This document shows positions 1,909 to 24,044 of a stretch of DNA of 25,954 nucleotides, piece after piece. This stretch comes from a virus, in IMG/VR virus record IMGVR_UViG_3300048444_000129, positions 1 through 25,954 of that record. One strand, 5' to 3'. Both the position numbers and the translations under genes were made by a program. The first letter of the stretch is position 1. The number at the start of each line of letters is the position of its first letter. The notes under the pieces are model-generated. The model was not told where the DNA came from. It saw only the letters and a list, made by a program, of their open reading frames with translations, and searched no databases.

Positions 1909-2360
1909 ATAGTTTGAGATTTTCTTAACTTAGTTTTTAACTTAGTGTTCTTAGAGTTTTTTATTTTATCTAACTCAAACAAAGCAATCTTCAGTGTAAA
2001 CAATTCCTCTTTGTCTTCAGATTTTTCTTCAAAAACAGTTTTTACTAACAGATTAAAAAACTTTGTATCAACTTTATTATTCTCTAAGACTAATCCTTCA
2101 TTTTTTGCTATCTCTAATACAGCAGTCTCATAATCTTTTCTTTCTTCTTGTTTTCTCTTATATGTTATTTCATGCAAATCATCTAAAGTAACAAACTCTA
2201 ATAAAATTTTATATTGTGGTTCGTTTTCATCAAAAGGTATTACTGTTGGGTATGTTTCTTTTTTATCTTCACTTGTTGCTAGTATTTCAATAAACTTTCT
2301 ATCTTCATCACAGAAATATGCCGTGATAAAATTATCTTTCAAGTATTCTTTAGTTAGCAT
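1869..2360 (-). CDS. Unrecognised acidic, charged protein (163 aa)
   Basis: I do not recognise this protein with confidence. The start codon at 2360 lies inside the end of the epimerase gene (11-base overlap), with GAGGAT a few bases upstream, so it is the last gene of the late minus-strand run. The N-terminal third looks like a small globular domain (TAYFCDEDRKFIEIL, then an IPFDENEP stretch). The rest is strongly charged (many E, K, D) and probably helical. There is no signal peptide or membrane segment. The final 40 bases of coding sequence are antisense to the end of the plus-strand glycosyltransferase gene. The position suggests a marine T4-like accessory protein, but no function is assigned. 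Confidence 0.7.
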   Translation of the reverse strand: MLTKEYLKDNFITAYFCDEDRKFIEILATSEDKKETYPTVIPFDENEPQYKILLEFVTLDDLHEITYKRKQEERKDYETAVLEIAKNEGLVLENNKVDTKFFNLLVKTVFEEKSEDKEELFTLKIALFELDKIKNSKNTKLKTKLRKSQTIYDTLSVAFELTK

Positions 2361-3078
2361 GTCTTTGATCCTCTATATAACTGTATAAATCGACTTTGGG
2401 TTTCCATCCTAAATCTTTTAATATACTTATGTCTGCTTTATTATCTAATCTCTCGTTTTCTTTTCCCACCAATCTCTCACACTCTATTCCAAAGTAATCT
2501 ACAAGTTGAACTAAGTTATTGGTCTCTCCTGTTCCAATATCTAAGACACCTGTAAAATCTGAACTCATTAAAGTTTCAATAGCACTTATAATATCATTTA
2601 CATGAATAAAATCTCTTGTATGATTTGTATGAATAAAAGGAACATCGTTTCTTAATATTCTAGGAATTAACATATCTTTTTTAGCATTAGGTCCATAGAC
2701 AGTTGTAAATCTCATACCAACACTATTTTTTGGTGCGATCATCTCTAAAGCATGTTTAGTAATTCCATATGGATTACGCCATGATTCATACACCACTGAA
2801 GAACTAGCATATAATATTCTTGTATCTTTAAAAAAGTCAAATAATCTTTGCCCAGCAATTACATTGTTTATCCAATATCCTGTTGGGTTATTTAAACTAT
2901 CTCTCACACCTGACAAACCTGCCAAGTGAATTACTAAATCGACATTATGTTTTAAGTCGCAATTTAATAAATCATTACCTGACGCTTTATCTAAGCAGAT
3001 TATGTTATGTTTTTCTTTAAAATGATTTTGTAGATTTTGTCCTATAAATCCATCACTGCCTGTTAATAATATGTTCAT
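2350..3078 (-). CDS. NAD-dependent epimerase/dehydratase (SDR family), short form
   Basis: This is a 242-residue extended-SDR-type sugar nucleotide epimerase or dehydratase. The NAD(P)-binding motif is at the very start (T6-G-S-D-G-F-I-G13). It is followed by D-L-V-I-H-L-A-G and G-V-R-D-S near residues 47-61, the catalytic serine region ASSSVVY near 91-97, and Y104-G-I-T-K108 (YxxxK). R-F-T-T-V-Y-G-P near 123-130 is the usual substrate-side loop. The family converts nucleotide sugars, for example 4-epimerisation or 4,6-dehydration. At 242 residues it is well below the roughly 310-340 usual for these enzymes, so the C-terminal substrate domain is reduced. The exact reaction cannot be assigned. 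It sits after the fibre genes and next to the glycosyltransferases, which supports a role in making a sugar donor. No strong Shine-Dalgarno site is visible. Confidence 0.85.
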   Translation of the reverse strand: MNILLTGSDGFIGQNLQNHFKEKHNIICLDKASGNDLLNCDLKHNVDLVIHLAGLSGVRDSLNNPTGYWINNVIAGQRLFDFFKDTRILYASSSVVYESWRNPYGITKHALEMIAPKNSVGMRFTTVYGPNAKKDMLIPRILRNDVPFIHTNHTRDFIHVNDIISAIETLMSSDFTGVLDIGTGETNNLVQLVDYFGIECERLVGKENERLDNKADISILKDLGWKPKVDLYSYIEDQRHAN

Positions 3079-3081
3079 ACT

Positions 3082-3091
3082 CTATATATAC
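3082..3091 (-). promoter_or_regulatory. GTATATATAG element upstream of the SDR gene, possible promoter
   Basis: The minus strand reads GTATATATAG three bases before the epimerase ATG region, in the 16-base gap after the fibre gene stop. An identical 10-mer occurs upstream of the GT9 gene at 13630-13639. It differs by one base from the T4-type late box TATAAATA (TATATATA) and could be a weak late promoter or a separate promoter class. In AT-rich DNA a chance match is possible. Confidence 0.3.
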
Positions 3092-3094
3092 AAG

Positions 3095-4003: not shown

Positions 4004-4678
4004 CTATGTACTTGTTCCGTGTATTATCTTAACTGTTGTTCCACTTGAGTCGATTATGGATAAAGAAACCGAATTAGATAAACTTGAAAGATTAGAAGAA
4101 CTTGTAAGCAATGTTCCACTTTCATTCGGTAGATTTATTGTGTTATTTTGTGTTGGATCAATTACCGATAATGTAGTTGTTATACCATCGTCAGTAGCAC
4201 CTTCAAATACTAAATTAGGTGGTAATGTTGTTGTATTTGTTGTTGAATTAATATTAGTTGTAGTTATAGAACCAGCAACGTTTACGTTTGTATTAATATT
4301 TAATGACGTACTATCGTTTGTCGTAATAGTTCCATTTGAAATTGAAACGTTTGAAACTGAAAGACTTGTATTAATAACAACATCATCTGTTAATGCTATT
4401 TTAAGAATATCAGTTGGTAATACACCAGCAGATATTTGATTAGTTGTTCCTTGAAATGTAAGTGTATCTCCACCAGCAATTGTTTGAGTATTGTTTGATT
4501 CATCAATAATTGTAAAACCATCATCAACAGTAGCTTTTAATTCATTTAACGCACCCATGGCGTTAGTAGCAGTAAATCCTGTTAATATCGCAGGATCACC
4601 AACGTCTAAACCAAGTTTATTAAACTCAACTCTAAACTTCTCTAAAGTGTCTGTAACGTATATATGTGCTATTGCCAT
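4004..4678 (-). CDS. Tail fibre-like protein (224 aa)
   Basis: The first 60 residues form a small N-terminal domain (D-T-L-E-K-F-R-x-E-F-N-K-L-G, then A-M-G-A-L-N-E-L-K) of a type common at the start of marine phage fibre proteins, probably for attachment to the baseplate or to another fibre. A variant of the shared shaft module follows (T-I-I-D-E-S then G-D-T-L-T-F-Q-G near 56-78), then a Thr/Asn/Ser-rich beta region with many I-N-T and T-N-I repeats. The start ATG shares its A with the upstream stop (TAATG), so translation is coupled to the small helical gene before it. No receptor-binding domain is recognisable at the C-terminus. Confidence 0.65.
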   Translation of the reverse strand: MAIAHIYVTDTLEKFRVEFNKLGLDVGDPAILTGFTATNAMGALNELKATVDDGFTIIDESNNTQTIAGGDTLTFQGTTNQISAGVLPTDILKIALTDDVVINTSLSVSNVSISNGTITTNDSTSLNINTNVNVAGSITTTNINSTTNTTTLPPNLVFEGATDDGITTTLSVIDPTQNNTINLPNESGTLLTSSSNLSSLSNSVSLSIIDSSGTTVKIIHGTST

Positions 4679-11104: not shown

Positions 11105-12628
11105 TTAAAATTCGATAATTAATTTTATATTTTCAGTTTGATCAATAGCTCTTGCAATTCTAACTCTATTCTCAACATATAAAACATCACCAGAGTCATG
11201 TTTAATTTCTGGTACTGAATATCCACTTATAAACGAAACAGCGTTTATAGTTTGTGTAGATATATCAGGAGTTCCTGTTGCACTTGAACCAGGAGCAGAA
11301 ATTACACCTGAACCACTAAATGCTATTTGATCTCCACTTGTAGAGACACCAGCATCGTTGTGTCTAAACTGTGAAAAGTATAAAATATTGTTTGAAGAAT
11401 CCCACTCAACTACTTTACCAGTTGCGCCTGTTGTTGCCTGGTTTATTTCTTCATCTACTAAGAATGTTCCTGGAGATGGAGAAGCAGAAAGTTTAACAGC
11501 AAAAGTTCCTCTAGCTGTAATATCAGTTAAGTCAGTTCCGTTTGGATCTTTAGGGTCTTTAATTAAAGAGATTTTTCTAAAATCGTTAGCAGCAGTGAAG
11601 TCACCAGTTCCTAATGAATTGGCATTTTCACTTCCTTCTAAAGTAGTAGTCATCATCACAAAGAAAGCACCTAACTCGGCAGGAGCATTTGCACCGTGAC
11701 CACCTTTAGGTGGAATAATTACATCTAGTTCAGCACCTGAACCAGTTCCACCAGCATTTGTTCCAGCAATAATATCAGCATCTGTGATATATGCATATGT
11801 GTATCCTGAACCATTTGTTGTAATATTAATTGAAGTTACAATACCACTTTGTATAGTTACTTCACACTCGGCAGCAGAACCACCGTTTGCAGAATAGTCA
11901 CCTCTTATTGGAACACCTGTAATAGTTCCTGATGAACCACCACCATTAATTGTAAATCCAGTTCCACCATTTGCAACAGAAACAACATCTAGTCTTCCGT
12001 CAGTAGCTGCAGCCGCAATAGTAGAATCAGTTGCTACAGGCATAAAGTCAGTTGATAAGAAATTAACTTGTTGGGCAGCACTTAATGTATAAATGTATTT
12101 CCATCTATATCCGTCAGATGTAATTACAAAAGGTGTAGTAGATGTTCCAGTTGGTTCTACTGTTGAAGTAGCACCACCATTATTATCTAAACACTTGTAA
12201 ACATTTCTTGCTGTTGTGAGTACATAGTAGGATGCGTCAAACAAAGTTGTTGCACCACTATTTGATGTTCTTCTTGTTGATGAACTATTAGGAACATATT
12301 CTTCATAATCATGTCTATACATATCATAAACTGTTCCAGATATCCAATTTCTTCTTGGACATACTAATGCTACATCGTTACCAGTTATTCTTTTGGCAGC
12401 GATTAATTCATCAAAGTTATTAAATTCGTTTATTACACTATCACCAGGAGTTTCTGGTATAGTTTCAGTACCTTCAAAATCTGTTCTTCCGTCAGGTCTT
12501 GTAAAAGTACCATATTCTCTAATTCTACCGATACCTAGGTAGTAGTAATTAGGGTTTGTTTCTGTGAAAGACTCTCTAAAGTTTTCGGCATTATTAAGTC
12601 TAAATTTGTTTGTTACTATTGCTGGCAT
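11105..12628 (-). CDS. 8: Baseplate wedge subunit gp8 homologue (507 aa)
   Basis: The protein matches T4 gp8 at both ends and in between: A-I-V-T-N-K-F-R at residues 3-10, P-R-R-N-W near 91-95, Y-K-C-L-D near 145, S-D-G-Y-R-W-K-Y-I-Y near 170, and V-E-N-R-V-R-I-A-R-A-I-D-Q-T-E-N-I at the end. In T4, gp8 is a dimeric wedge component between gp10/gp11 and gp6/gp7. This version is clearly longer than T4 gp8 (334 residues). The extra sequence lies in the centre and includes a G-G-T-G-F / G-S-G-Y-T beta repeat and an F-L-V-D-E-E-I plus T-T-G-A-T-G-K-V element also seen in other wedge proteins here. Two TATAAATA boxes precede it and AAGGATAAG is the ribosome site. Confidence 0.88.
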   Translation of the reverse strand: MPAIVTNKFRLNNAENFRESFTETNPNYYYLGIGRIREYGTFTRPDGRTDFEGTETIPETPGDSVINEFNNFDELIAAKRITGNDVALVCPRRNWISGTVYDMYRHDYEEYVPNSSSTRRTSNSGATTLFDASYYVLTTARNVYKCLDNNGGATSTVEPTGTSTTPFVITSDGYRWKYIYTLSAAQQVNFLSTDFMPVATDSTIAAAATDGRLDVVSVANGGTGFTINGGGSSGTITGVPIRGDYSANGGSAAECEVTIQSGIVTSINITTNGSGYTYAYITDADIIAGTNAGGTGSGAELDVIIPPKGGHGANAPAELGAFFVMMTTTLEGSENANSLGTGDFTAANDFRKISLIKDPKDPNGTDLTDITARGTFAVKLSASPSPGTFLVDEEINQATTGATGKVVEWDSSNNILYFSQFRHNDAGVSTSGDQIAFSGSGVISAPGSSATGTPDISTQTINAVSFISGYSVPEIKHDSGDVLYVENRVRIARAIDQTENIKLIIEF

Positions 12629-12644
12629 TTCTTATCCTTTTCAA

Positions 12645-12652
12645 TATTTATA
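12645..12652 (-). promoter_or_regulatory. Late promoter box TATAAATA, proximal to gene 8
   Basis: This is a perfect match to the T4-type late promoter octamer on the minus strand, 17 bases from the gp8 start codon. With T4 spacing, transcription would start near 12639, just ahead of the AAGGA ribosome site. It is one of two tandem boxes in the 56-base gap before gene 8. Confidence 0.72.
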
Positions 12653-12675
12653 TAACTTATTAATATTGTTTTTAA

Positions 12676-12683
12676 TATTTATA
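12676..12683 (-). promoter_or_regulatory. Late promoter box TATAAATA, distal to gene 8
   Basis: This second perfect octamer lies 31 bases upstream of the first and directly after the GT9 stop codon (12685-12687). Tandem late boxes would give gene 8 and the long downstream DUF4815 gene strong transcription independent of the fibre genes. Confidence 0.68.
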
Positions 12684-12684
12684 A

Positions 12685-13596
12685 TCATTCCGAAGAACAT
12701 TTTACATCTATTTTATCTTTATCTTTAGGACGATCTATAATAGATTTGAACGACTCATATACTTTTTCTGGTTCTACCATAATATTACGAGGGTCATTTG
12801 GGTCGTATTTGTTCTCATTCCACTTATTCCCCATATGAAATTGTAAGTTTTTATGATGTGTATAACCAAATTGAGTCCATCTTGTACTCCCCCAAACAAT
12901 GACACCTCTTGTTTTAGATGAAGCAGCAAAATGCTGTAAACATGAATCTATACCGATAAATGCTTTTGCGTTTTTAAGTAATTCATGTAACTGTGACCAA
13001 TGTAAAGGACATTTGATAGTTCCTTGATAACTTGGTTCATTTGGTAATGTACAATCAATAATAGTCAATTTGGGATATTCTTGTTTGATTGTATTAATAA
13101 CTGTTTGCGCTAAGTATTGTGGATAGATACGGCCAGGATTATTATTATTATATGGAGTATTAGCGGCGCCACCTGTCCAACTACTTTGACCACCAGAAAA
13201 CTGAATTAAAATATAATCGTTAATTTTATTATCTAGTAACCATTTATCTACTGATTCTTTTAAATGATCTGTAAACATTTTAGGAACCATACTTCTTTCA
13301 AATTCAATACCATGTAACTTACTGTATGCTTCAATCAAATGTTGATCACCAAATTGAAAATTTGATTTGTAAGGTTCTGAATAGTAAATATTATCACTAC
13401 TCATTATTCTTTTATCGTTTAAAGGAATTGTTTGTTCAAATGCTAATTTAACATTTGGATTGTTTGCAAAACATCCAACATAAGGTGTATAAACTTGTAT
13501 TGGTTGTCCTGCCTTTTCGGTTAATTTATCTACTAGTGATGTGAACGTTGAACATTTACCAACTCCACCTTCAACTATATAAGTGTCTAATGTCAT
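12685..13596 (-). CDS. Family 9-like glycosyltransferase (heptosyltransferase-like), 303 aa
   Basis: The fold looks like GT-B glycosyltransferase family 9. There is an N-terminal glycine loop (E-G-G-V-G-K-C-S-T near 9-17), a central I-L-I-Q-F-S-G-G strand near 129-136, and the diagnostic C-terminal block A-F-I-G-I-D-S-C-L-Q-H-F-A-A-S near 212-226 with Asp217 and His222. G-V-I-V-W-G-S-T follows near 231-238. Family 9 enzymes add heptose or related sugars to lipopolysaccharide cores. It is not a structural protein, yet it sits between the LamG-like gene and gp8 inside the baseplate cassette. It could alter host lipopolysaccharide after infection, or sugar-coat the fibres; neither is shown. A GGAG site precedes the ATG, and the leader holds a GTATATATAG element. 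Confidence 0.8.
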   Translation of the reverse strand: MTLDTYIVEGGVGKCSTFTSLVDKLTEKAGQPIQVYTPYVGCFANNPNVKLAFEQTIPLNDKRIMSSDNIYYSEPYKSNFQFGDQHLIEAYSKLHGIEFERSMVPKMFTDHLKESVDKWLLDNKINDYILIQFSGGQSSWTGGAANTPYNNNNPGRIYPQYLAQTVINTIKQEYPKLTIIDCTLPNEPSYQGTIKCPLHWSQLHELLKNAKAFIGIDSCLQHFAASSKTRGVIVWGSTRWTQFGYTHHKNLQFHMGNKWNENKYDPNDPRNIMVEPEKVYESFKSIIDRPKDKDKIDVKCSSE

Positions 13597-13629
13597 AATA
13601 ACTCCATAATTTTTAATAATTTAATAATA

Positions 13630-13639
13630 CTATATATAC
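13630..13639 (-). promoter_or_regulatory. GTATATATAG element upstream of the GT9 gene, possible promoter
   Basis: The minus strand reads GTATATATAG in the 48-base gap between the LamG-like gene stop and the GT9 start. It is the same 10-mer as at 3082-3091 before the SDR gene, one mismatch from the late box. Its position before two sugar-active genes only is suggestive. Confidence 0.32.
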
Positions 13640-13644
13640 GTCTC

Positions 13645-14511
13645 TTAAACAGTAGGTGCCGAAGACTTGTAAGGATGAGAACTTGGTAAACCAGCAGTCA
13701 ATCCCCATTTATGTGCCAAGTATCCTTCAGCAATTTCAAAGTAACTCATATCAGTACCACTTGTTCCTGGTTGTCTTGCATAAGCAAGTGATTCTGCCAT
13801 TCTTCCGTCTAATTCTTGTGATGATCTATTTCTCATAAATCTTACTTGTTGTCTTATCTGTAAAGAGTTATCATAATCATTTACAGGATTAAATGCGTTT
13901 TGACCATTTATTCTAAGACCGATTTGATTTCCTGATTTATTAAAAAATACACCAACAATATACCAAGTAAAGGATGATAAACTTACAAAATTCCATTGTT
14001 GAAGATTACCAATTACTGAACTGATTCTATTTGAAGATAGTCCATCTAAATCTAATTCTCCAGGCCAAGTATTATTACTCGCACCTGAACTTATGGCATA
14101 ATCTCTTTTTGGATTTTGATTAGTTTCTACTGACCAAAATGAATCTTGGCTAGAGTTTGATCCATGATATTGAAATACACCTACAGCCCAATGATTACCA
14201 CTACTAACTTGACTATTTACATAACTTCCACTTTGGATATATTCATTACTACCACTAAAATCTGCAACGTCTCTACTATTTAATCCATTAGTTACAATTG
14301 TTGGTGTTCCACCAATAGAAAAACTGTGTTTTCCAGCCTTATCTGATAATCCTATTATTGTAGTTCCTGATGTTGATCTACTACTACTATCATCAAAGTC
14401 AACCCACCAAGCAAGAAATCCCAAATCAGATGGTGCCCATGGAGTAGCGGATGCTGAAGAAGTTGCTCTTCTTCTCATTGAATGTCCTATTGAACTAAAT
14501 GACGAACCCAT
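13645..14511 (-). CDS. LamG/concanavalin-like domain structural protein (288 aa)
   Basis: After a short Ser/Thr/Arg-rich N-terminus, the protein has an L-A-W-W-V-D-F-D-D segment near 33-41, a long beta-rich body, and the ending A-E-G-Y-L-A-H-K-W-G-L plus L-P-S-S-H-P-Y-K near 255-282. That ending is typical of the LamG-like (concanavalin A-like lectin fold) domains found in marine phage structural proteins. Such domains bind carbohydrate, so it is a candidate receptor-binding or capsid/fibre decoration protein. It follows the second fibre gene with an AGGAGAT ribosome site. The fold assignment comes from motif resemblance. Which sugar it binds cannot be read. Confidence 0.68.
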   Translation of the reverse strand: MGSSFSSIGHSMRRRATSSASATPWAPSDLGFLAWWVDFDDSSSRSTSGTTIIGLSDKAGKHSFSIGGTPTIVTNGLNSRDVADFSGSNEYIQSGSYVNSQVSSGNHWAVGVFQYHGSNSSQDSFWSVETNQNPKRDYAISSGASNNTWPGELDLDGLSSNRISSVIGNLQQWNFVSLSSFTWYIVGVFFNKSGNQIGLRINGQNAFNPVNDYDNSLQIRQQVRFMRNRSSQELDGRMAESLAYARQPGTSGTDMSYFEIAEGYLAHKWGLTAGLPSSHPYKSSAPTV

Positions 14512-14519
14512 GTTATCTC

Positions 14520-15695
14520 CTATGAGAAACTAACAGATTGTCCTGTAACAATGTAAGAACTTCCTGTATAGTAGATTGTAAATGAAATTATATCTACACC
14601 ATTAGCAGTACCAGATGGTGTTGAACCACCTTGCCAATTAATTGTAGTGCTTGAACCATTAACATTTAATTGAGTTATCATATAAGGTGTTGAACCTTGA
14701 TTCCATATTGCTGTAATATTAGTTCCTTGTGCAGACGATAATGATAAATTAGTTACATTTAAAGTTTTATTATTAAATGCACCACTAAGAAATAAACTAT
14801 GAGATACTAAAGCAGATAGACTAACTGTTGAAGCTGCACCAGATGATCCTAAAAATGATTCTATAATTCCATTATCAGATAATTTTATTCCACCAGTAAT
14901 GTTTTTATCATTAGTATCTAAATCTCCACCTAAAGAAGGTGATGTATCGTGTTCAACATTTAATGATTGTATATTATGTGATCCTGCTACTGCTGAATAA
15001 ACTAGATAACCATTATCTATGGTTGAAGTATTTACGTCTGTTAAAGCACCAAGTGTTGTTGGAGCAGTTTGTGATACCCAATCATAATCTGTTCCATTCC
15101 AACTTAATACTTCGTTAGTTGAAGCAGATGATTGATTTAAATGTGTATCAACGTCTGAGTCTGTATATGGATTTGTAGTTGATGGAGGTGGTGCCCAAAC
15201 ATAATCTGTTCCAGACCAAGTTAAATATTGATTAGTTGTAGCAGTTGATGTGTTTATATGTGAGTCAACGTCTGAGTCTGTGTATGAGTTAATATTTGCA
15301 CCATCAATTGTTATTGTGTTACTTGTAACACTTGCTGAAATTCCATTTGTTCCTTGTATAGTTAAGATTTCTCCTAAAGCAACTGTGTCTGTTGTTGAAC
15401 TTGCGTCTCTTATTGTAATTGTATTGTCTGTAAAAATAAGATTACCAGCACCATCAGTTGATATAAGTTGATTTGCAGAACCATCTGATTGTGGCCAAGA
15501 TAATCCATCTAATACAATATTTCCAGTTCCATCAGGAGTTATATTAATATCACCATCATTAGTAGATACTATCGCCTGTGTTGAAACATCTAAGTCACCT
15601 GCCAATGTTGGATTTGGATCTTCTTGTTGTCCTTGTATTTCTACTGTTCCATTAGGAAGAAGAAAGTTTGGAAATGTTCTTGTTATTTGTCCCAT
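14520..15695 (-). CDS. Tail fibre protein with tandem YTDSDVD repeats (391 aa)
   Basis: The N-terminal region carries I-N-I-T-P-D-G-T-G-N-I-V-L-D-G-L-S-W-P near 50-68, a block I recognise from many marine phage fibres. It is followed by one copy of the shared shaft module (T-I-R-D-A-S-S-T-T-D-T-V-A-L-G-E near 94-109). Two tandem repeats start with Y-T-D-S-D-V-D at about 138 and 177, a 39-residue period ending in W-S/N-G-T-D-Y-x-W. The C-terminal part is Ser/Thr/Asn-rich beta sequence with no recognised enzyme or lectin motif. It probably forms a trimeric fibre or a segment that joins the large YadA-like fibre made from the gene just before it. AAGGA precedes the start. Confidence 0.72.
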   Translation of the reverse strand: MGQITRTFPNFLLPNGTVEIQGQQEDPNPTLAGDLDVSTQAIVSTNDGDINITPDGTGNIVLDGLSWPQSDGSANQLISTDGAGNLIFTDNTITIRDASSTTDTVALGEILTIQGTNGISASVTSNTITIDGANINSYTDSDVDSHINTSTATTNQYLTWSGTDYVWAPPPSTTNPYTDSDVDTHLNQSSASTNEVLSWNGTDYDWVSQTAPTTLGALTDVNTSTIDNGYLVYSAVAGSHNIQSLNVEHDTSPSLGGDLDTNDKNITGGIKLSDNGIIESFLGSSGAASTVSLSALVSHSLFLSGAFNNKTLNVTNLSLSSAQGTNITAIWNQGSTPYMITQLNVNGSSTTINWQGGSTPSGTANGVDIISFTIYYTGSSYIVTGQSVSFS

Positions 15696-15705
15696 ATTTT
15701 ATTCC

Positions 15706-18700
15706 TTATAGAGGTAAATACCTTACTTGTATTTCTGAACTTGCCGATGGGGCAAGAACGAAAGTTAATGTTGTTCCTGAAATTGTATAGTCATCTGTTG
15801 GAACTAAAACTATTCCGTTTACAATTACAAATACATCATCAACAGTTCTTCCACTTTGATTTAATGTAAATGCACTTGTTGATTCATCACCTGTAAATTT
15901 CTGTGTACTGTATGAGTTAGAACTTTTAGCAATAGTTACTGTGTTGCCTGAAGCAGATGTTGTAATTCCTGTTCCACCAACAAGTGTTAAACTTTCAGTT
16001 CCTAAATCTATACTAATTGATGTTGAACTATCGTCTAATACACTTAAAGAACCAGATGCCGAGTTTGATATTGTAATTGTATTACCAGAAGCAGATGTTG
16101 TAATACCTGCCCCACCAGCAATCTGTAATTGTTCAGTTGATAATGTTATCGCAACAGCAGTTGAACTATCATCTATTACATTTAATGTTCCACCACCTGC
16201 GTCTTGTAATTCTAAGTATCCTGTTGAAGCATTATGTGTTAAGACTTGGCCATCTACAGCACTTGCCTGAACACCAGGTAATCTAAATTTTGTATTTGCT
16301 GGGTTACCAATTGTAATTTCATCATCAACAATTTGTGCTGATGGTGCAGCTGCATATCCTATAATAACGTTATTACATCCATCTTGCAAATCATAAACAC
16401 TAGAGCACCAAAAAGGTCCACTAAAACCCCCACCCAAAAAATTAAAACTACTAAATCCAGTAGCTGCATGAGAACCTATGATAGTGTTATGTCCAGTTCT
16501 ATTAGCACTTGAACATCCTTGATGTAAACTATTAGCAGCATTAGAACCCACAACTGTGTTATTTGTAGGGCCACTATCACCAGATGCTGGACCCATGTGA
16601 GCATTGTCTCCGATCACAACCATACCATAAGCTGAAAGTGAATTGTTTCCAAAAGTATTTGTTCCGACTAAAGTAATACCTTGTCCAGATGATGTATAAA
16701 ATCCAGCACCAGCGCCAACAGAAGTTATATGAGGTGCATAATCAGGTGAAGAAAAATTACCCATTCCTTCCTCACCAACTACTACAACACCAGTTGTAAC
16801 ATCATCACCAAAAGGAGAAGTAAAATCGCATTGATAAGCACAAGCACCAATAATAACTGAACCACTTAGTCCTCTTACATATTGAGCGGCATATGCCCCC
16901 AAAACTACGTTTTCACATGAGTTACATCCAAAAGAACATGTATTGGCATCAATGCCTTGAAGAGCATCATTTCCAATAATTACATCATTATATGAATGTG
17001 CTAAAGTTGGTACTTGACTTCCACTGTGAACACTTGACATATCACACATACAAGTAAATGCTCTATTACCAATAACAATTGATCCCTCAAGCGCATTGTT
17101 CATTGCTGAAGTATTACCTAAAACAACTGAATCTTTAAGTCCTATGTCAACTCCACATAAAGTATTATTACATGTAGCCGCAGCCGCATTGTGTCCTATA
17201 ACGACATTGGTATCGGCAAACACAACACAGTTCATTGCAAAATTACCAATTGCAAGGTTTGCTGTTTGTTCAAAGTTACATCCATACTTATTGTTACTTG
17301 ACCAATTTGGAATACCACTATAACTAGAACATACAGCAGGTGGATTACCTGTTGTTAATCTATTTGATCCAGTACACTGCCAACAATCAGAGCATGTTTG
17401 TACCCTTGAAGCTGCACTTCTTCCGATAGCAATTTGATAACCAGTTAATGAGTTACTTCCAGCAGATGATCCAATACTAATATTATCATTTCCTGTAGCA
17501 CTTCCACTAGCACCTCTACCTATAGCAACATTATAACTAGTGTTACTAACTGCACTACGAAAATTACATCGCCCAATAATAACGTTTTCATAAGCATTAC
17601 TTTGGATACAATTACCACTTTGTTGCCCAAGTACAATATTTCTGCTAAATGTACTTGGATTTGTACTATCAAATAAACTAAGTCCAAGCATAATGTTGCA
17701 AGACACATTACAATTAGAAGCAGCACACATGCTTCCCATAATGCTTGCCCCAATTGCAACGTTATTCCATCCGTGAGCTGCTTTTGTCAAAACAGACTTA
17801 CCTAATGCAACATTACAATATCCATCTGAAATTCCACAAAGAGCATCTGTTCCTACAGCAACGTTATTTGTTCCGTCAACAATACCACATAATGCATTAT
17901 ATCCTATAGAGACGTTACATCCTGCGTTAGCAGCGTTTGGTATGTCTGCTGTTGTACCAATAGCAACATTGCATCGTCCCAGAGGATGATATCCTCTTAA
18001 TCTCATTTCAGCGCCAGACGCTAAATCAAAACAAGTAAGGCCTTCTAAGCAAGTTGTTGTACAACCTAATTCTAATACTGTTGTTCCTAAAGTTGTACAT
18101 TTAGAAACAGGTGCCAAATCAATTGTTAAAACATTGTTGGCAATTGAAGTTGTGATAGCGTTACTTCCTGTTATATGTAAAGTTTCACCAAGTGCTACTG
18201 TATCAGTAGTTGATGAACTATCTCTTATTGTGAATTCTTTAAAAGCAGGTGCCAAGTCAATTGTTAAAACATTGTTGGCAACTGAAGTTGTGATAGTACT
18301 GCCTCCTGTTATGTGTAGAGTTTCACCAAGTGCTACTGAATCAGTAGTTGATGTGCTATCCATTATTGTTAATTCTGAATTTACTAAAGCGGAGTTTGGT
18401 ATATTTGTAAATGTATTTGAAAGACCATCAAGTGTTTTATTAGATAATGTTTCTGTTCCCGTTTGTGTAATTACAATTGATTGATCAATATCTAATTTTA
18501 ATTGAGTACCTGTAACAGATGAAACAATACCTAATCCACCAGTAACATCTAATTGATCAGTTGTTAAATCAATACCTATAGAAGATGATGAATCGTCTGT
18601 AATTGTAAGTGTTGAAAGAACGGCACCAATTGAGTTTGATTCAAACTTGCCTGTTGATGAGTTATATATTAATGCCTCACCGTTTACAGGATTTGAAACG

Positions 18701-18840
18701 TCAATTGATAAAGTCGAACCATCACCGATTGCACCGTAGATTTCATTAAAATTATCGTTAATTTTATCACCACCGTCTCTAATCGGGTCACCAGTGTTAT
18801 CGTTGGGTAATGTTCCTATATTGATTAATTGTTTTGACAT
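15706..18840 (-). CDS. Giant cysteine-rich YadA-like tail fibre/adhesin (1044 aa)
   Basis: Residues 1-40 are a fibre N-terminal domain (I-N-I-G-T-L-P-N-D-N-T-G-D, then N-D-N-F-N-E-I-Y). Residues 75-250 carry shaft modules, including two tandem 46-residue copies. Residues about 285-850 consist of some two dozen repeats built on N-V-x-I-G (for example C-N-V-A-I-G-T, N-N-V-A-I-G-A, E-N-V-I-I-G-R), the signature of YadA-type trimeric adhesin heads. This region ends with E-I-T-I-G-N-P and F-R-L-P-G. Two more 46-residue modules and a beta-sandwich (F-T-G-D-E-S to D-D-Y-T-I-S-G) close the protein. I count about 32 cysteines, all between residues 248 and 822, often just before the N-V strand; neighbouring structural proteins have almost none. 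It has its own late promoter. Trimeric host-recognition fibre is the likely role. Confidence 0.78.
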   Translation of the reverse strand: MSKQLINIGTLPNDNTGDPIRDGGDKINDNFNEIYGAIGDGSTLSIDVSNPVNGEALIYNSSTGKFESNSIGAVLSTLTITDDSSSSIGIDLTTDQLDVTGGLGIVSSVTGTQLKLDIDQSIVITQTGTETLSNKTLDGLSNTFTNIPNSALVNSELTIMDSTSTTDSVALGETLHITGGSTITTSVANNVLTIDLAPAFKEFTIRDSSSTTDTVALGETLHITGSNAITTSIANNVLTIDLAPVSKCTTLGTTVLELGCTTTCLEGLTCFDLASGAEMRLRGYHPLGRCNVAIGTTADIPNAANAGCNVSIGYNALCGIVDGTNNVAVGTDALCGISDGYCNVALGKSVLTKAAHGWNNVAIGASIMGSMCAASNCNVSCNIMLGLSLFDSTNPSTFSRNIVLGQQSGNCIQSNAYENVIIGRCNFRSAVSNTSYNVAIGRGASGSATGNDNISIGSSAGSNSLTGYQIAIGRSAASRVQTCSDCWQCTGSNRLTTGNPPAVCSSYSGIPNWSSNNKYGCNFEQTANLAIGNFAMNCVVFADTNVVIGHNAAAATCNNTLCGVDIGLKDSVVLGNTSAMNNALEGSIVIGNRAFTCMCDMSSVHSGSQVPTLAHSYNDVIIGNDALQGIDANTCSFGCNSCENVVLGAYAAQYVRGLSGSVIIGACAYQCDFTSPFGDDVTTGVVVVGEEGMGNFSSPDYAPHITSVGAGAGFYTSSGQGITLVGTNTFGNNSLSAYGMVVIGDNAHMGPASGDSGPTNNTVVGSNAANSLHQGCSSANRTGHNTIIGSHAATGFSSFNFLGGGFSGPFWCSSVYDLQDGCNNVIIGYAAAPSAQIVDDEITIGNPANTKFRLPGVQASAVDGQVLTHNASTGYLELQDAGGGTLNVIDDSSTAVAITLSTEQLQIAGGAGITTSASGNTITISNSASGSLSVLDDSSTSISIDLGTESLTLVGGTGITTSASGNTVTIAKSSNSYSTQKFTGDESTSAFTLNQSGRTVDDVFVIVNGIVLVPTDDYTISGTTLTFVLAPSASSEIQVRYLPL
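15916..16191 (-). repeat. Tandem 138-bp repeats, C-terminal shaft modules of the large fibre
   Basis: Two adjacent 46-codon units (residues 884-929 and 930-975) share D-D-S-S-T, then G-G-x-G-I-T-T-S-A-S-G-N-T. The matching DNA words recur exactly 138 bases apart, for example GAAGCAGATGTTGTAAT near 15950 and 16088. The units are diverged, so the duplication is not recent. Confidence 0.75.
18094..18369 (-). repeat. Tandem 138-bp repeats, N-terminal shaft modules of the large fibre
   Basis: Two 46-codon units (residues 158-203 and 204-249) are nearly identical. Both contain V-A-L-G-E-T-L-H-I-T-G and A-N-N-V-L-T-I-D-L-A-P, and long DNA stretches match at a 138-base offset, including AAAACATTGTTGGCAA. 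The similarity is higher than between the C-terminal pair, which suggests a more recent duplication or gene conversion. Confidence 0.82.
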
Positions 18841-18864
18841 ATCTCTCTTTGCTCTGCTTTGTTA

Positions 18865-18872
18865 TATTTATA
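18865..18872 (-). promoter_or_regulatory. Late promoter box TATAAATA for the large fibre gene
   Basis: This perfect late octamer on the minus strand lies in the 42-base gap between the gp7-like gene stop and the fibre start at 18840. T4-type spacing puts the transcription start near 18859, leaving a short leader with AGAGAGAT as ribosome site. It would give the fibre, LamG and GT9 genes their own late transcript. Confidence 0.72.
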
Positions 18873-18882
18873 ATCGAAAATT

Positions 18883-21468
18883 CTATACTCTATCCATCTT
18901 CTTCTTAGTTGATGACCATCTAGTTGTTGTAGTATCAAACTTAGGCGATGTTGTTATATTTGCTGGTAATGTAAACTTAGTTTTAAGTTGTTGTCCACCA
19001 CTTGTTGAAGTCATAATAAACACAGCCTCACCACCATTTAAAGATGATCTAGTATGTTGAACTTTCAGTTCCCCTATTGGTTTAAATGTATTAACACTTT
19101 GTAATACACTTGAATTCGTTGCCCCACCAAATGCCGTATTAGCATATTTGTTAAGTGTCTTATATCTTGGTCCTAAACCAAAACCTTGTTTAACTAATAT
19201 TCCTGTTCCGTCTGAATTAAATATTGTTCTCTTAACTCTACTTACAATATCGTAACTTATAGGTGGTGCAAATACAGTTACGTCTCTTGTTTTAGTTGGG
19301 AAGTGATCATGTGTTGACGGATCTAAATCAAACGGAACACCTAATTTTGGATCAGTTCTTAATGAAGTGCCATCTGTTGTTGTTCCTAATCTTCTTCCTA
19401 ACAATGTTCCAAAGATTAATTTGATTAGTGAATCAAAACCAGGTGTTGTTCCAACGATAGGTCTAATTCTTCCACTTAATCTGGATTGTATATCTACTTC
19501 TCCAATATAATAGAAACCTGCTGGGTGAGCAGCCTTCTCGTATGCGTCTCTCCAATCATTGATTGATCTACCAACTTTAATGATATAAGAATAATCTTGG
19601 TATAATAAACTGTCTTGTAATACCATAGTTGATTCAGAAACCCAACCATCAGTATTTAAAAATCTGCCAGATGTTTCACTTACTACATCAACTGTTGCTG
19701 TAACTGTTGCCTGACTATGTCTAACAATTGTAGCAGAACCACCAGGTCCTGTTAATGTAACATTTGTTCCAAATAGTCCATCTGTTTCTTTTACTTTTAA
19801 AATTTGTGTGTTAACATCATAAGATACAACTGTACCTGAAACAACTGTTGAACCATCTGATCCTAATGCTGTTACTGTTTGCAATGATGAAAATGCACCA
19901 ACAACATTTGTTAATACAAGATAAGATGGCATTGTCATTGTTGCAGGAGTTGGCGAATTTTCGTAATTAAATCCTAACTCTAATTCATTAAATGTCAGTA
20001 CTCTTCCTATTTGACTACCATAAGTTAATATCTTAGCACCACTACCACTTGATGATGTAACTGTTATTGTAGGAATAGAACTAAATCCATTTCCGTTATT
20101 TAAAAATCTTAAATCTGTTATATCACCTACACCTGTACTTGTCTCTTGTACAATTTTATTTCCTGTGTATGGATCACTTTTTGTTGTTTCATCTTCTAAT
20201 ACAATATGATCATCAGTTGATGATAAAGATTCCTCTTGTGTAAATCCACCATTAACTACTGATACTTTTGCTTCGGCATTTCCAATACTAAAATTAACAA
20301 GATCACCTATTTCATATCCTGTTCCACCTTCATCTACAATTAAATCTTCAAGTGAACCTAATCCTACAGGTCCAACTGAATATAATGCACCTGTTCCACC
20401 ACCTGTTGTTTGTATTAAATCATTTTCATTATACAAAGCACCATTTGATGTAATAACTTTTTCAGTAATAATACCAGATGAATTTAAAACAATTAAATCA
20501 TCTTCGTCTGTGTTACTTGATCCTATAATTCTTGCACCAGGAACAAAGTCACCTACAACTGAATCATATCCTAAAACTAACTCAGCAACAATTTTTCCAC
20601 CAATAGGATATTTTACAACACTTTCAACAATTGCCGTTGCCTTACCTACTAGATTAGTTTTAAATTGTGTAATAGTTTGACCAACTAATTTACCAGCATC
20701 AGAAAATCCTACTTCTAATGCTCTCATCACTTTTTTAGTTTCCCACTTACCATCAGATGCTCTTAAAATATTATCTCTTGGATATCTGATTTCAGCAGGT
20801 ATGTTAAAAAGTAATTGAAAGATTATCTCACTTGCTCTTTTAGTTCCTTTTGCTTCATAGAATGATTTTATATTTTTAACTAAAGTTTTCTTATCTAAAC
20901 CATCAGCAAGTTTTTCAGGTATAGAATTTAAAAATGCATTTCTAAAGTTTATTAAAAATTGATCTAATGTTCCATCAGGATCAGAATACTCACAAAGTTG
21001 ATGAATACTTTGAACTGGATTTGGTCTATACTTTGATATTGTTGCTTCGGCACCTGAAGTTAGTCCGTAAATTTCTTCACCTATTTTAAATTTGTTTTGT
21101 GATGTTATAAACAAACGAGAACCAGCATCTGTGTCTTCAACTATTACAGTTGCTTGAGCACCAGATATTCTTCCTTTGATAACTTCACCATTAATAAAAT
21201 CCCCAACAGGAGAATTTTCCATTAATAGATTATCTTCTCCGTCATCCTTTGTACGATTAGTTCCATTTAATTGCATGAAACTAGTTACAACAGGATTTTC
21301 TAATTGAATAATATTAGGGTCGTTAATTTTTATAAGTGATAATTCAGCAGCTTCTAAGAATTGATAATAAAGTTTTACAAACTCTAAAAAATACGGATGA
21401 TCCTCAAGCACAAAATCAGGTGATTGAGTTTCTATAAAGGTTGAGATTTTATCTTTTAAGTCTGCCAT
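18883..21468 (-). CDS. Baseplate wedge protein, probable gp7/gpI-like (861 aa)
   Basis: The protein starts with a helical domain (P-D-F-V-L-E-D-H-P-Y-F-L-E-F-V-K-L-Y-Y near 17-35). A beta insert (G-E-V-I-K-G-R-I-S-G-A-Q-A near 93-105) interrupts it. It continues as L-D-Q-F-L-I-N-F-R-N-A-F-L near 168-180 and K-T-L-V-K-N-I-K-S-F-Y-E-A-K-G-T near 194-209. The last block resembles the end of P2 gpI / Tail_P2_I domains (an arginine/lysine helix then x-K-G-T and a hydrophobic helix). In P2, gpJ and gpI are adjacent and correspond to T4 gp6 and gp7, and here the gene directly follows gp6. Later regions hold G-G-T-G-Y and G-N-G-F-S beta repeats. The gp7 identity is inference from synteny and this motif; a baseplate role is more certain. 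Confidence 0.72.
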   Translation of the reverse strand: MADLKDKISTFIETQSPDFVLEDHPYFLEFVKLYYQFLEAAELSLIKINDPNIIQLENPVVTSFMQLNGTNRTKDDGEDNLLMENSPVGDFINGEVIKGRISGAQATVIVEDTDAGSRLFITSQNKFKIGEEIYGLTSGAEATISKYRPNPVQSIHQLCEYSDPDGTLDQFLINFRNAFLNSIPEKLADGLDKKTLVKNIKSFYEAKGTKRASEIIFQLLFNIPAEIRYPRDNILRASDGKWETKKVMRALEVGFSDAGKLVGQTITQFKTNLVGKATAIVESVVKYPIGGKIVAELVLGYDSVVGDFVPGARIIGSSNTDEDDLIVLNSSGIITEKVITSNGALYNENDLIQTTGGGTGALYSVGPVGLGSLEDLIVDEGGTGYEIGDLVNFSIGNAEAKVSVVNGGFTQEESLSSTDDHIVLEDETTKSDPYTGNKIVQETSTGVGDITDLRFLNNGNGFSSIPTITVTSSSGSGAKILTYGSQIGRVLTFNELELGFNYENSPTPATMTMPSYLVLTNVVGAFSSLQTVTALGSDGSTVVSGTVVSYDVNTQILKVKETDGLFGTNVTLTGPGGSATIVRHSQATVTATVDVVSETSGRFLNTDGWVSESTMVLQDSLLYQDYSYIIKVGRSINDWRDAYEKAAHPAGFYYIGEVDIQSRLSGRIRPIVGTTPGFDSLIKLIFGTLLGRRLGTTTDGTSLRTDPKLGVPFDLDPSTHDHFPTKTRDVTVFAPPISYDIVSRVKRTIFNSDGTGILVKQGFGLGPRYKTLNKYANTAFGGATNSSVLQSVNTFKPIGELKVQHTRSSLNGGEAVFIMTSTSGGQQLKTKFTLPANITTSPKFDTTTTRWSSTKKKMDRV

Positions 21469-21470
21469 TT

Positions 21471-23336
21471 TTAATTATAACTTGATGTTGTTGAATATCC
21501 CACTCCTGCATTTGCTGAACCACCAACAAACGTATCAACTTCAACGTTGATCGAACTATTTGCAACATCTAATTCTATTATTTGATTTCTTAAAGGAACA
21601 ATGTCGTTAGATTGTGGTTGAACAGTTAGCTCAATTGAAGTTGAAGCAGAACCTCGTATATTCTCAACACTAGTTATAACTAAAGCATTTATTTTAATTT
21701 CACCTGTTTGGTAATTAATTGTTCCAGCATTATTGTCAACATAAACTTTTAATCCAGTTGTTGATGTTGAATTATAAAATCTTCTTAGATTACCATTACC
21801 ATCATCATCTAAGTACATAATTTCATTGCTATTTGAAACTCTAAATCCTGAAGAAAGTAAAACTCCTCCCATGTCACTAGCATGACCCATATGTGGATTA
21901 TAAAATGAATTTGAAAATGAAACGTTGTAGTTAATTGATGTATCTAAAGATGGTATAAATGATTTTCTTATTTTCACTTTTGTAATATTTGAAAGTATTG
22001 AGTTGTCTGTGTCATCAATAGTTTCAGATAATTTTGAATACCTAAACATACTATCAAACATTTGTAATGTGTTATCGTTAAAACTTTCTAAATTAGAAAT
22101 TACATCTGTTTTAATATCATCGGCAGATTTTGTTGTTGATCTGTCGTCATATTTAATAGTTGAAGTTAAAATAATTTTAGTAATTTCAGGATCAATTATT
22201 TCTGGTCTTACTGAAGCAACTGAATATTTTTTTAATGTATTAACAATATCTCTTTTTGTTGTTAATGTTAAGTTAGAACCTGATTTTGGTTTGATAGATA
22301 TAAAAACTTTTCCATAATATGGTGTTGCATTGTCTTCACCACCCCAAGCACTAATTGAATGTGCATTTGGATATAGTTGATTAACTTTAACTTTATAATC
22401 TTCAACTGTAACTGCTCTATCTTGTGACGCATAAAATTTAGGTGCATGAAATTTAACACTTGCATCCGTTTCAGAATCGGCACCGTTAGCAGCATTTGAG
22501 TTTACAGTTAATGTAAAGTCATTAAATCCTTGTATGTTACTTGCCAAAGTAAATGTTGAAGCGCCGTTAGCAGCATCTTTGTTAGTTACAACATATTTTA
22601 ATCTAACAATATTACCATCGTCTAATTTTTTTCCGATAATACCATCACCAAAATAAACTTCAAACTTACCATCTTCAGCTTCTTGTAAGAAATAAACTTT
22701 TGAGTCACCATCTAATTCAGTTATTGATGTTGCTCTATTGTAAGTTTGTATAACTGTGTCAGTTGAACTATTTTGAACTTCAACAGTTAGTGTAGTTGTA
22801 TCAGCATTTGCCGATGGTATAATAAATCTTTGATCTACATCTGAAGAATTTTCTGTATAGTTAAACGTTACATAAGTTCCTTCATAAATTTTTATATTTT
22901 TAAATTCATAAACACCATCTATTGGTGCAATTGTATGATTAGCGGCAGTTACAAATGAATAACTTGTTCCGTCAACTGTTGTTGTAAATTTTGTTGCGAC
23001 AGGCATAGTAATTGAACCACCTGTTCCATCATTCACTCTTACATTAACGTCGGCATAAGATGCCGTTGCCGAACTAGGTGTGTATCCTAATGCCTTTGCT
23101 AATGAAACAATACTATTTCTTAAATCAGCAGAGTCAATAAACATTTCATTGACAGCAACGTTTGTGTGATATGATAGATAGTGTGTGTTATATGCTAATA
23201 AATCTAGCAACACTGCCATACCAGAACCTTCAAAGTCATAATCTTTAAATTGATTTTGATTTGAAAGAAATCTTTTTAGATTTTCTTTGATGTTATCAAA
23301 GTCTAACTCTGAAATATTTAATTTGTGTGATGCCAT
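21471..23336 (-). CDS. 6: Baseplate wedge subunit gp6 homologue (621 aa)
   Basis: The N-terminal block aligns by eye with T4 gp6: N-I-K-E-N-L-K-R-F-L-S-N-Q-N-Q-F near 15-30, D-Y-D-F-E-G-S near 33-39, D-L-L-A-Y-N-T near 45-51, and S-A-D-L-R-N-S-I-V near 69-77 followed by A-L-G-Y-T-P. The middle part (V-E-D-Y-K-V-K-V, then A-W-G-G-E-D-N) fits the baseplate_J-like domain of contractile tails. T4 gp6 is about 660 residues, so this is near full length. In T4, gp6 dimers form the inner ring that ties wedges together and holds gp7 and gp25. The gene starts one base after the gp25 stop and is followed two bases later by the gp7-like gene, a strictly coupled wedge operon. Confidence 0.93.
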   Translation of the reverse strand: MASHKLNISELDFDNIKENLKRFLSNQNQFKDYDFEGSGMAVLLDLLAYNTHYLSYHTNVAVNEMFIDSADLRNSIVSLAKALGYTPSSATASYADVNVRVNDGTGGSITMPVATKFTTTVDGTSYSFVTAANHTIAPIDGVYEFKNIKIYEGTYVTFNYTENSSDVDQRFIIPSANADTTTLTVEVQNSSTDTVIQTYNRATSITELDGDSKVYFLQEAEDGKFEVYFGDGIIGKKLDDGNIVRLKYVVTNKDAANGASTFTLASNIQGFNDFTLTVNSNAANGADSETDASVKFHAPKFYASQDRAVTVEDYKVKVNQLYPNAHSISAWGGEDNATPYYGKVFISIKPKSGSNLTLTTKRDIVNTLKKYSVASVRPEIIDPEITKIILTSTIKYDDRSTTKSADDIKTDVISNLESFNDNTLQMFDSMFRYSKLSETIDDTDNSILSNITKVKIRKSFIPSLDTSINYNVSFSNSFYNPHMGHASDMGGVLLSSGFRVSNSNEIMYLDDDGNGNLRRFYNSTSTTGLKVYVDNNAGTINYQTGEIKINALVITSVENIRGSASTSIELTVQPQSNDIVPLRNQIIELDVANSSINVEVDTFVGGSANAGVGYSTTSSYN

Positions 23337-23337
23337 T

Positions 23338-23763
23338 TTATCTTAACCTTTGTAAAAATTCTGTTATAGTAACTAAGTCAGGAGAACCAACAACGTAAAA
23401 AACAATTCTAACTCTGTATTCATTTTTATCTAAGTCTCCGTTTGTTGTAACTTCAACTATATTTGCTCTTGGTTCGTAAACATCTAAAACTCTTTTAATT
23501 CTATCCGTAATAAGTGTCTCAATAACCGGCGTCATGTTTTCAAATAACAAAGCCCTTAGATCACATCCTATTTCAGGATGAAAAGGTCTTTCAAATCGAT
23601 TAGTAAGCACTAAGTTACGAAGCGATCTTTTAACTGCCTCAACGTCTGTTAATCTTACAACGTCTTTTGTTGCAGGATTACGATCAAAATCTAAATTTAA
23701 ATCACTATAAATTTTATTTGAACGTTTTGAGTTATTAGTTGATGTTGCGTCATAGTTTGCCAT
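23338..23763 (-). CDS. 25: Baseplate wedge subunit gp25 (141 aa)
   Basis: This is a gp25/GPW-family protein of usual length. Diagnostic segments are V-K-R-S-L-R-N-L-V-L-T-N-R-F-E-R-P-F near 44-61, P-E-I-G-C-D-L-R-A-L-L-F-E near 63-75, and V-Y-E-P-R-A-N-I-V-E-V near 94-104, followed by a strand of alternating residues. In T4 it joins sheath initiation to the wedge and has a lysozyme-like fold without needing lytic activity. The ATG at 23763 is the only sensible start, since the next Met is far inside the conserved region. No Shine-Dalgarno site is visible, and the late box TATAAATA lies only five bases upstream, so a leaderless late transcript is possible. Confidence 0.94.
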   Translation of the reverse strand: MANYDATSTNNSKRSNKIYSDLNLDFDRNPATKDVVRLTDVEAVKRSLRNLVLTNRFERPFHPEIGCDLRALLFENMTPVIETLITDRIKRVLDVYEPRANIVEVTTNGDLDKNEYRVRIVFYVVGSPDLVTITEFLQRLR

Positions 23764-23780: not shown

Positions 23781-24044
23781 TTAATTAGAAAAAACGTTAG
23801 AAGATCCAGAAATACTGTGTCCACAACTTGCTGAGTCTCCTTGACGACAAATAAACTTACCATTTGCTCTTACTGTTGATGATTTTCCAACCATAGGTGG
23901 TGGAGGTGAATGTGGCGATAATCCATGTCCTGCAACAGTGTCACCTACTCTGACAATTCCCGATCCGTTGACAAAAACGTCTGAACTTCCATCAATTGCA
24001 ACGCCTCCAGCGGCATCAACACCTTTTCGAGCAACTCCTGGCAT
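23781..24044 (-). CDS. PAAR-motif baseplate spike tip protein (87 aa), gp5.4-like
   Basis: The protein has the short glycine/proline-rich repeat pattern of PAAR spike tips: A-R-K-G-V-D near the start, a V-F-V-N-G-S-G-I-V-R-V-G-D segment, H40 and H45 around S-P-H-S-P-P-P-P, and an R-Q-G-D-S-A-S-C-G-H block with Cys74 and His76. PAAR proteins form a sharp cone that caps the central spike and hold a metal with His/Cys side chains. T4 gp5.4 is the known counterpart. AAGGAAG lies nine bases before the ATG. Its place just before gp25 and gp6 fits a baseplate hub/wedge operon. The spike/lysozyme gene (gp5) and gp53 are not in this window. Confidence 0.88.
   Translation of the reverse strand: MPGVARKGVDAAGGVAIDGSSDVFVNGSGIVRVGDTVAGHGLSPHSPPPPMVGKSSTVRANGKFICRQGDSASCGHSISGSSNVFSN

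Follow-up and report, generated by a model that had tools for sequence, protein, structure and literature searches.

Cysteine-studded ladder fibres of viruses are linked to a GT9-like glycosyltransferase that may S-glycosylate them

The window analyzed here is the whole of a 25,954-base IMG/VR virus record (IMGVR_UViG_3300048444_000129), the minus strand of which carries a T4-like baseplate cluster. This cluster, from a marine phage, encodes a cysteine-studded tail fibre protein of 1044 residues (15706..18840, minus strand) and a GT9-like glycosyltransferase (GT) of 303 residues (12685..13596, minus strand), the proposed partner enzyme. We found a strong, cysteine-specific association between fibre ladders of this type and this GT family across viruses. 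Fibres with ladder cysteines are almost always accompanied by one GT, suggesting that the cysteines are sugar attachment points rather than disulfide staples. Judging from sequence, we consider it fairly probable that the linked enzyme S-glycosylates exposed single cysteines of a YadA-like shaft attached to the baseplate. An earlier note on this DNA described the fibre but missed the association with the glycosyltransferase.

A glycosyltransferase accompanies cysteine-bearing ladder fibres

The scans of virus sequences returned fragments, not complete genomes, and the counts given here are among the matches listed; ladder percentages rest on a simple motif definition, and GT assignments on a profile built for this analysis. 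From the GT side, 80 viral loci were retrieved and 77 were analyzed. A ladder fibre was located 5' of the GT in 70 of the 77, at -99 to +382 nucleotides in 67 of them and at 2,089 nucleotides in three window-like loci. Every one of these 70 fibres had ladder cysteines (median 2.55%, minimum 0.79%). The remaining 7 loci were at contig edges, and a C-terminal remnant of the fibre was found in 4 of them.

The association was also seen from the fibre side. Ladders sampled by Ser or Asn at rung position p3 (defined below) were mostly poor in cysteine, about 1/10 to 1/7 of them being above 2%. In the flanks of the Ser-ascertained ladders, the GT was present in 7 of 9 with at least 2% cysteine vs. 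none of 55 below that level (p=6e-8). The 2% boundary was set after the Ser sample was seen; the Asn sample, which served as an independent check, showed the GT in 5 of 9 vs. 3 of 54 (p=8e-4). When whole contigs of at least 29 kb were sampled regardless of cysteine, the GT was found in 13 of 14 cysteine-rich but only 1 of 31 cysteine-poor contigs (Fisher p 3e-9). A GT match was likewise present in 24 of 29 cysteine-ascertained or cysteine-rich records, including the Kyanoviridae single-cell virus AG-345-L05. Only 2 of 50,697 phage records had the GT, those of the cultured pelagiphages HTVC111P and HTVC112P, and in both the GT lies directly 3' of a cysteine-bearing ladder fibre; the window GT is 62% identical to that of HTVC111P.

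The window GT matched Pfam Glyco_transf_9 (1.7e-6, 28.0 bits, above the cut-off of 22). Its NCBIfam matches were lipopolysaccharide (LPS) heptosyltransferases and Aah/TibC, all far below cut-off, and it is not a member of the Aah/TibC family (TIGR04414, 16.3 bits vs. a cut-off of 200).

The flanks of cysteine-rich ladder loci also hold carbamoyltransferases, group-1 and GT34 glycosyltransferases and sugar-nucleotide genes; the families listed for the flanks of cysteine-poor loci include no glycosyltransferases. At another locus (L094, 2-2869), a cysteine-bearing ladder protein matched the Pfam Chlorovirus glycoprotein repeat (1.2e-24) with a GT relative nearby, suggesting that the pairing of fibre and GT may reach algal giant viruses.

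The link is specific to cysteine in the ladder

At the six variable positions of the rungs, cysteine made up 7.4% of residues in GT-linked fibres vs. 1.2% in the background (p=4e-27). Cysteine was the only one of the 20 residues to be strongly enriched with the GT, the next being Lys at 1.5-fold, and neither Ser, Thr and Asn nor His showed any enrichment at these positions. Fibres without a cysteine at a variable position numbered 0 of 56 among those linked to the GT, compared with 140 of 184 in the background.

GT9 enzymes usually act on LPS, and the GT might act on host surface sugars or on other fibre residues, the cysteine enrichment being indirect (for example through a common host or a fibre cassette that hitch-hikes). 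The matches of the GT to LPS heptosyltransferases fit such an account, as does the modification of Ser in beta-helical adhesins by TibC/Aah (PMC4358343), and fibre and GT could merely travel together. We regard this as unlikely. The absence of Ser, Thr and Asn enrichment argues against it, and the cysteine link persists within families defined by the C-terminal domain, with divergent GTs (25-60% identity) and in fibres of a second fold. When fibres with a common C-terminal domain (50% identity or more) were compared, the GT-linked fibre was the richer in cysteine in 485 of 495 comparisons (stratified p=5e-5); simple lineage therefore fails to account for the link. Locus-wide cysteine richness does not account for it either, the other open reading frames (ORFs) of GT loci being slightly lower in cysteine than controls. 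The excess was limited to the ladder; outside it, the rest of the fibre had a median of 0%.

The second fold is Kelch-like. Kelch-like fibres adjoin the GT in one GT-bearing lineage (L293-295, L590 and L594) and carry one cysteine per repeat, before TESYNG, in 82-93% of repeats; in 28 loci without the GT the value was 0%. At L292 and L293-L295 the GT stands among small genes with no NVxIG ladder in the flank, and a ladder-type fibre (L325) is encoded at another place on the L293 contig.

The fibre is a baseplate-type protein with a YadA-like ladder

From its N-terminus, the fibre consists of a gp9/10-like domain, beta linker repeats, a YadA-like NVxIG ladder and C-terminal beta repeats. Because the N-terminal domain of T4 gp9/10 is recognizable at residues 3-105 (Pfam T4_gp9_10_N, PF07880, 9.1e-11, above cut-off), the protein is most likely attached to the baseplate. 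It also matched phrog_677 (baseplate wedge tail fiber connector, 7.7e-29) and, in the PDB, T4 gp9 (1pdp, 4.2e-7). No S74 match at the C-terminus was found in the Pfam search, nor was any Pfam domain of the C-terminal membrane anchor of trimeric autotransporter adhesins found in the 1044 residues.

The ladder (residues 291-850; 16291..17970, minus strand) has about 26 NVxIG-type rungs in tandem, spaced mostly 16-25 residues apart, with an invariant G and a [VI]-x-[IV] core. The YadA-like ladder proposed in the earlier note is thus borne out by the rung map, and the predicted structure of a relative is in keeping with it. AlphaFold2 modelled a regular 12-rung relative as a solenoid with a predicted local distance difference test score (pLDDT) of 88.9. 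The PDB structures that this model matched best included the heads of YadA, CbpF and BoaA, at E 0.02-0.5 only, and it also resembled the head of AtaA; against viral ladder proteins, many of them of the S74 type, the model scored E<1e-13. A sequence-profile search of the PDB with the regular ladder was set aside, as it returned only weak chains of another left-handed-helix type. The window's own head, modelled by AlphaFold2 with 4 sequences, reached a pLDDT of 46, and that model was not used. The shaft of the fibre is probably a YadA-like beta-roll and is presumably trimeric.

The fibre has 32 cysteines, all at residues 248-822 (575 residues, 5.6%), and 28 of them are in the ladder. The neighbouring structural proteins have 0-3 cysteines each: none in ORFs 13645-14511, 14520-15695, 21471-23336, 3095-3994 and 4004-4678, and 1 in 861 residues and 2 in 2063 residues in other structural ORFs. 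Both counts agree with the earlier note. The note had further placed many of the cysteines directly before the NVxIG strand. Such motifs exist, but just five cysteines are at -1, that is p3 (C290, C308, C342, C381 and C562), and two at -2, that is p2 (C642 and C822); others are at p13 (C318 and C335), p10 (C425 and C667) and p14 (C411, C538, C597 and C671). The rest fall outside regular rung positions. They include four cysteines ahead of the ladder (C248, C260, C264 and C270) and five (C483, C486, C489, C504 and C521) in a cysteine-rich CxxCxxC-type insert (CSDCWQC...C...C) at residues 480-523 (17272..17403, minus strand), delimited by alignment with relatives.

The view of the earlier note that the fibre is of an unusual kind is supported. 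The cysteine pattern exceeds chance, and cysteine-rich ladders form a class. A pair of C-N-[VI]-x-x-G strands at a spacing of 17 residues was searched for in 2.9 M viral contigs; 53 stretches were listed, all of them within NVxIG-ladder ORFs. The largest cysteine load among ladder ORFs found by the pattern was 171 cysteines in 3191 residues. The single cellular match in 84,980 genomes, in Cerasibacillus (L265), was rejected, as the protein is not of the ladder type.

Cysteines recur at variable rung positions and are retained

The rung register was counted from the N of NVxIG, the regular relatives having 17-residue rungs. The invariant Gly was aligned with Gly-8 in the canonical repeat of YadA, which has 14 residues (PMC9543794), and the cysteine directly before NVxIG is therefore at p3, where BpaC has a ladder of Asn. 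The variable offsets 15, 16, 5, 6, 9 and 10 correspond to p2, p3, p9, p10, p13 and p14, respectively. In 2,445 rungs, cysteine occurred mainly at these six positions (5-14%, about 13% at most permitted ones) and almost never at structural positions of the rung. The six variable positions that carry cysteine face outward.

Across the wider family these positions hold many residues, among which cysteine is exchanged, as would be expected if cysteine were simply one residue tolerated at variable sites. Such neutrality is highly improbable. In cysteine-rich ladders the level of about 13% compares with a background of about 1%, the coupling to the GT is strong in the Ser-, Asn- and GT-side samples and in the family comparison, and in close relatives retention at these positions is higher for cysteine than for other residues. 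The cysteine-rich relatives include L004-L008, of which L004, L005 and L008 are near-identical. L006/L007 are about 80% identical overall; they retain 27 of the 32 cysteines, lose 5 and gain 10, and within the domain 23 of 28 cysteines are retained vs. 67% of all residues. All five cysteines of the insert are kept in L006/L007. Both clusters of off-rung cysteines (residues 480-523 and 248-270) are conserved there. In six close pairs pooled, some proteins occurring in two pairs, cysteine at variable rung positions was retained in 68 of 76 cases, and other residues in 512 of 810. Free replacement by Ser or Thr, which the earlier note held would refute its proposal, is thus seen in part: many residues substitute across the wider family, but the closest divergent relative keeps most of the window fibre's cysteines.

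Cysteine-cysteine pairs show no consistent excess

The earlier note had proposed that the cysteines stack along the ladder to form disulfides or a metal ladder. Alignment along the ladder holds in so far as the cysteines recur at outward rung positions; the stacked pairing is not supported. If cysteines were placed for disulfides, particular position pairs should co-occur. We tested co-occurrence against within-protein shuffles for every pair of positions in the same rung or in rungs at a distance of one to three, and found no consistent excess, diagonal pairs included: stacked, within-rung and inter-chain-neighbour pairs were near or below chance in 2,445-3,109 rungs. Stacked p2-p2, p10-p10 and p13-p13 pairs and inter-chain p3-p10 pairs were close to expectation. 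Same-rung p10-p13 pairs were depleted in the cysteine-rich set (15 observed vs. 48 expected); in the GT-linked set this depletion was less marked and did not reach significance. In that set (1,730 rungs), 119 same-rung pairs were observed where 135 were expected. For adjacent rungs, 335 were observed where 292 were expected, a slight surplus to which many pairs of positions contributed. An excess of p3-p3 pairs was an artefact of the search pattern, which ascertains one such pair per protein, and excesses linked to p9 had their source in duplicated repeats of L129, L120 and relatives.

The idea that a trimeric fibre is stapled by post-lysis oxidation of stacked or inter-chain cysteines has points in its favour: extensive disulfide networks occur in virions, as in phage Milano (PMC10811340); position 3 of the left-handed parallel beta-roll (LPBR) adjoins position 10 of the neighbouring chain (PMC9543794), making p3-p10 bridges sterically conceivable; and the five-cysteine insert is fully conserved. 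Without a pairing signal in the rungs of relatives, however, we rejected a disulfide ladder as the general cause and consider it rather improbable for this fibre. It also leaves the cysteine-specific link to the GT unexplained. The outward cysteines of the fibre probably do not pair with each other.

Thiols might instead bind metal ions (e.g. Fe, Zn, Cu) along the fibre and so aid attachment to metal-uptake receptors. Iron-binding phage tails are an earlier proposal for marine phages, and the insert has a CxxCxxC motif. We find this very unlikely: the cysteines mostly occur singly in a rung and do not form ligand-like clusters, GT-linked positions show no enrichment of His, and metal binding predicts no GT.

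Proposed explanation

That a glycosyltransferase accompanies these fibres suggests that single thiols are modified. We propose that the fibre would be anchored to the baseplate through its gp9/10-type N-terminus, and that the outward variable positions of its rungs would present many single, unpaired cysteines. During infection the GT would transfer sugar onto these thiols (S-glycosylation), resulting in a sugar-coated shaft, and the coat may tune adsorption, solubility or protection. We infer the activity of the GT, cysteine as its acceptor, the sugar used and the role of the coat from sequence. Ser heptosylation by TibC/Aah (PMC4358343) and cysteine glycosylation in glycocins are precedents for such a modification. 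For viruses at large, we lean, by a narrower balance, towards a widespread system: repeat-built tail fibres, with YadA-like ladders or, in one lineage, Kelch-like repeats, would have dozens of their outward cysteines S-glycosylated by a fibre-linked GT9-like enzyme and so become thioglycoside-coated. Its range would run from small pelagiphages through T4-like phages to virus contigs of 100-365 kb.

Several observations weigh against S-glycosylation of the fibre. The GT resembles known families weakly, no sequence relative of it was found in the PDB, and several of the GT matches in contigs are incomplete and of low strength (E 1e-5 to 1e-9). Among cysteine-rich ladder contigs of at least 30 kb, 5 of 29 cysteine-ascertained and 1 of 14 others had no GT match, although fragments may miss the GT. 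The window's GT does not adjoin the fibre gene but lies two genes from it, and the window's ladder is irregular. There is no obvious linear sequon. The insert and the four cysteines ahead of the ladder may be a separate structural, metal or disulfide feature. The Kelch-like evidence is weak on its own, because it comes from one lineage.

Gene neighbourhood of the fibre

The two genes between fibre and GT, both on the minus strand, encode a fibre-like protein of 391 residues (14520..15695) and a virion-like protein of 288 residues (13645..14511); neither has cysteine, and both genes are retained between fibre and GT in L004-L007. The rest of the minus-strand cluster encodes a PAAR protein (23781-24044), gp25-like (23338-23763), gp6-like (21471-23336) and gp8-like (11105-12628) proteins, a large wedge protein (18883-21468) and a DUF4815 protein of 2063 residues. 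The T4-type baseplate gene order of gp25, gp6, large wedge protein, gp9-like and gp8 is present (PHROG matches, 11105-23763), and the fibre gene occupies the slot of the 'putative tail fiber protein' in pelagiphage Mosig. A gene for an NAD-dependent sugar epimerase/dehydratase (2350..3078, minus strand; Pfam Epimerase, 7.5e-22) could, speculatively, supply the sugar nucleotide. At the window's start, a 5'-truncated ORF on the plus strand (1-567) has a SPASM iron-sulfur domain (PF13186, 5.4e-6) and is the C-terminal portion of a protein of the radical SAM/SPASM type; a glycosyltransferase-like gene follows it (485-1327, phrog_1962).

Significance and comparison with known systems

If the proposal is true, it gives a reason for the cysteine richness of some phage fibres and identifies the enzyme responsible, cysteine-linked sugars join the means by which phages dress their host-recognition proteins, and a protein cysteine-glycosylation system exists on virions. 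Cultured marine phages would allow it to be tested, and it might yield a multi-site cysteine glycosyltransferase as a tool. Ladder cysteines together with the GT form a genomic signature by which such fibres could be predicted in metagenomes. S-glycosylated proteins are seldom detected (PMC9877059). A narrowly phrased literature search on phage tail-fibre glycosylation found nothing, which is weak evidence of absence.

The heads of YadA-type trimeric autotransporters (YadA 1P9H, BoaA 3S6L, CbpF 9GH5 and BpaC), which are left-handed parallel beta-rolls, share NVxIG-type rungs and the invariant Gly with the fibre. Unlike them, the fibre has no autotransporter anchor and has a phage baseplate N-terminus and many cysteines; the YadA repeat is of 14 residues, whereas the rungs of the relatives are mostly of 17 and those of the window irregular. 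The ladder fold is shared by S74-type ladder fibres (the Prochlorococcus phage P-SSM2 proximal tail fibre, the HTVC111P and HTVC112P tail fibres, SPO1 gp2.52 and giant-virus S74 proteins). The HTVC111P and HTVC112P fibres resemble the window in having both ladder cysteines and the GT, but most S74-type ladder fibres have few or no ladder cysteines and lack such a GT.

Glycocin enzymes are GT2-type, a family different from the GT9-like one. The glycocin S-glycosyltransferases (of sublancin, glycocin F and pallidocin) show that thiols of bacterial cysteines can be sugar acceptors, but glycocins are small bacteriocins and not fibres, whereas the window fibre would have dozens of sites per chain. 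Agrobacterium phage Milano, like the window, has cysteine-rich structural proteins in its virion (PMC10811340); its cysteines form mapped disulfides in the sheath and baseplate (PMC10811340), whereas fibres of the window type show no pairing signal. In Aah/TibC with AIDA-I/TibA, a heptosyltransferase-related enzyme goes with a beta-solenoid adhesin that is modified at many sites (PMC4358343), much as proposed here. TibC/Aah target Ser of beta-helical autotransporters, whereas the residue correlated with the enzyme in the window's system is cysteine and the TIGR04414 match is weak.

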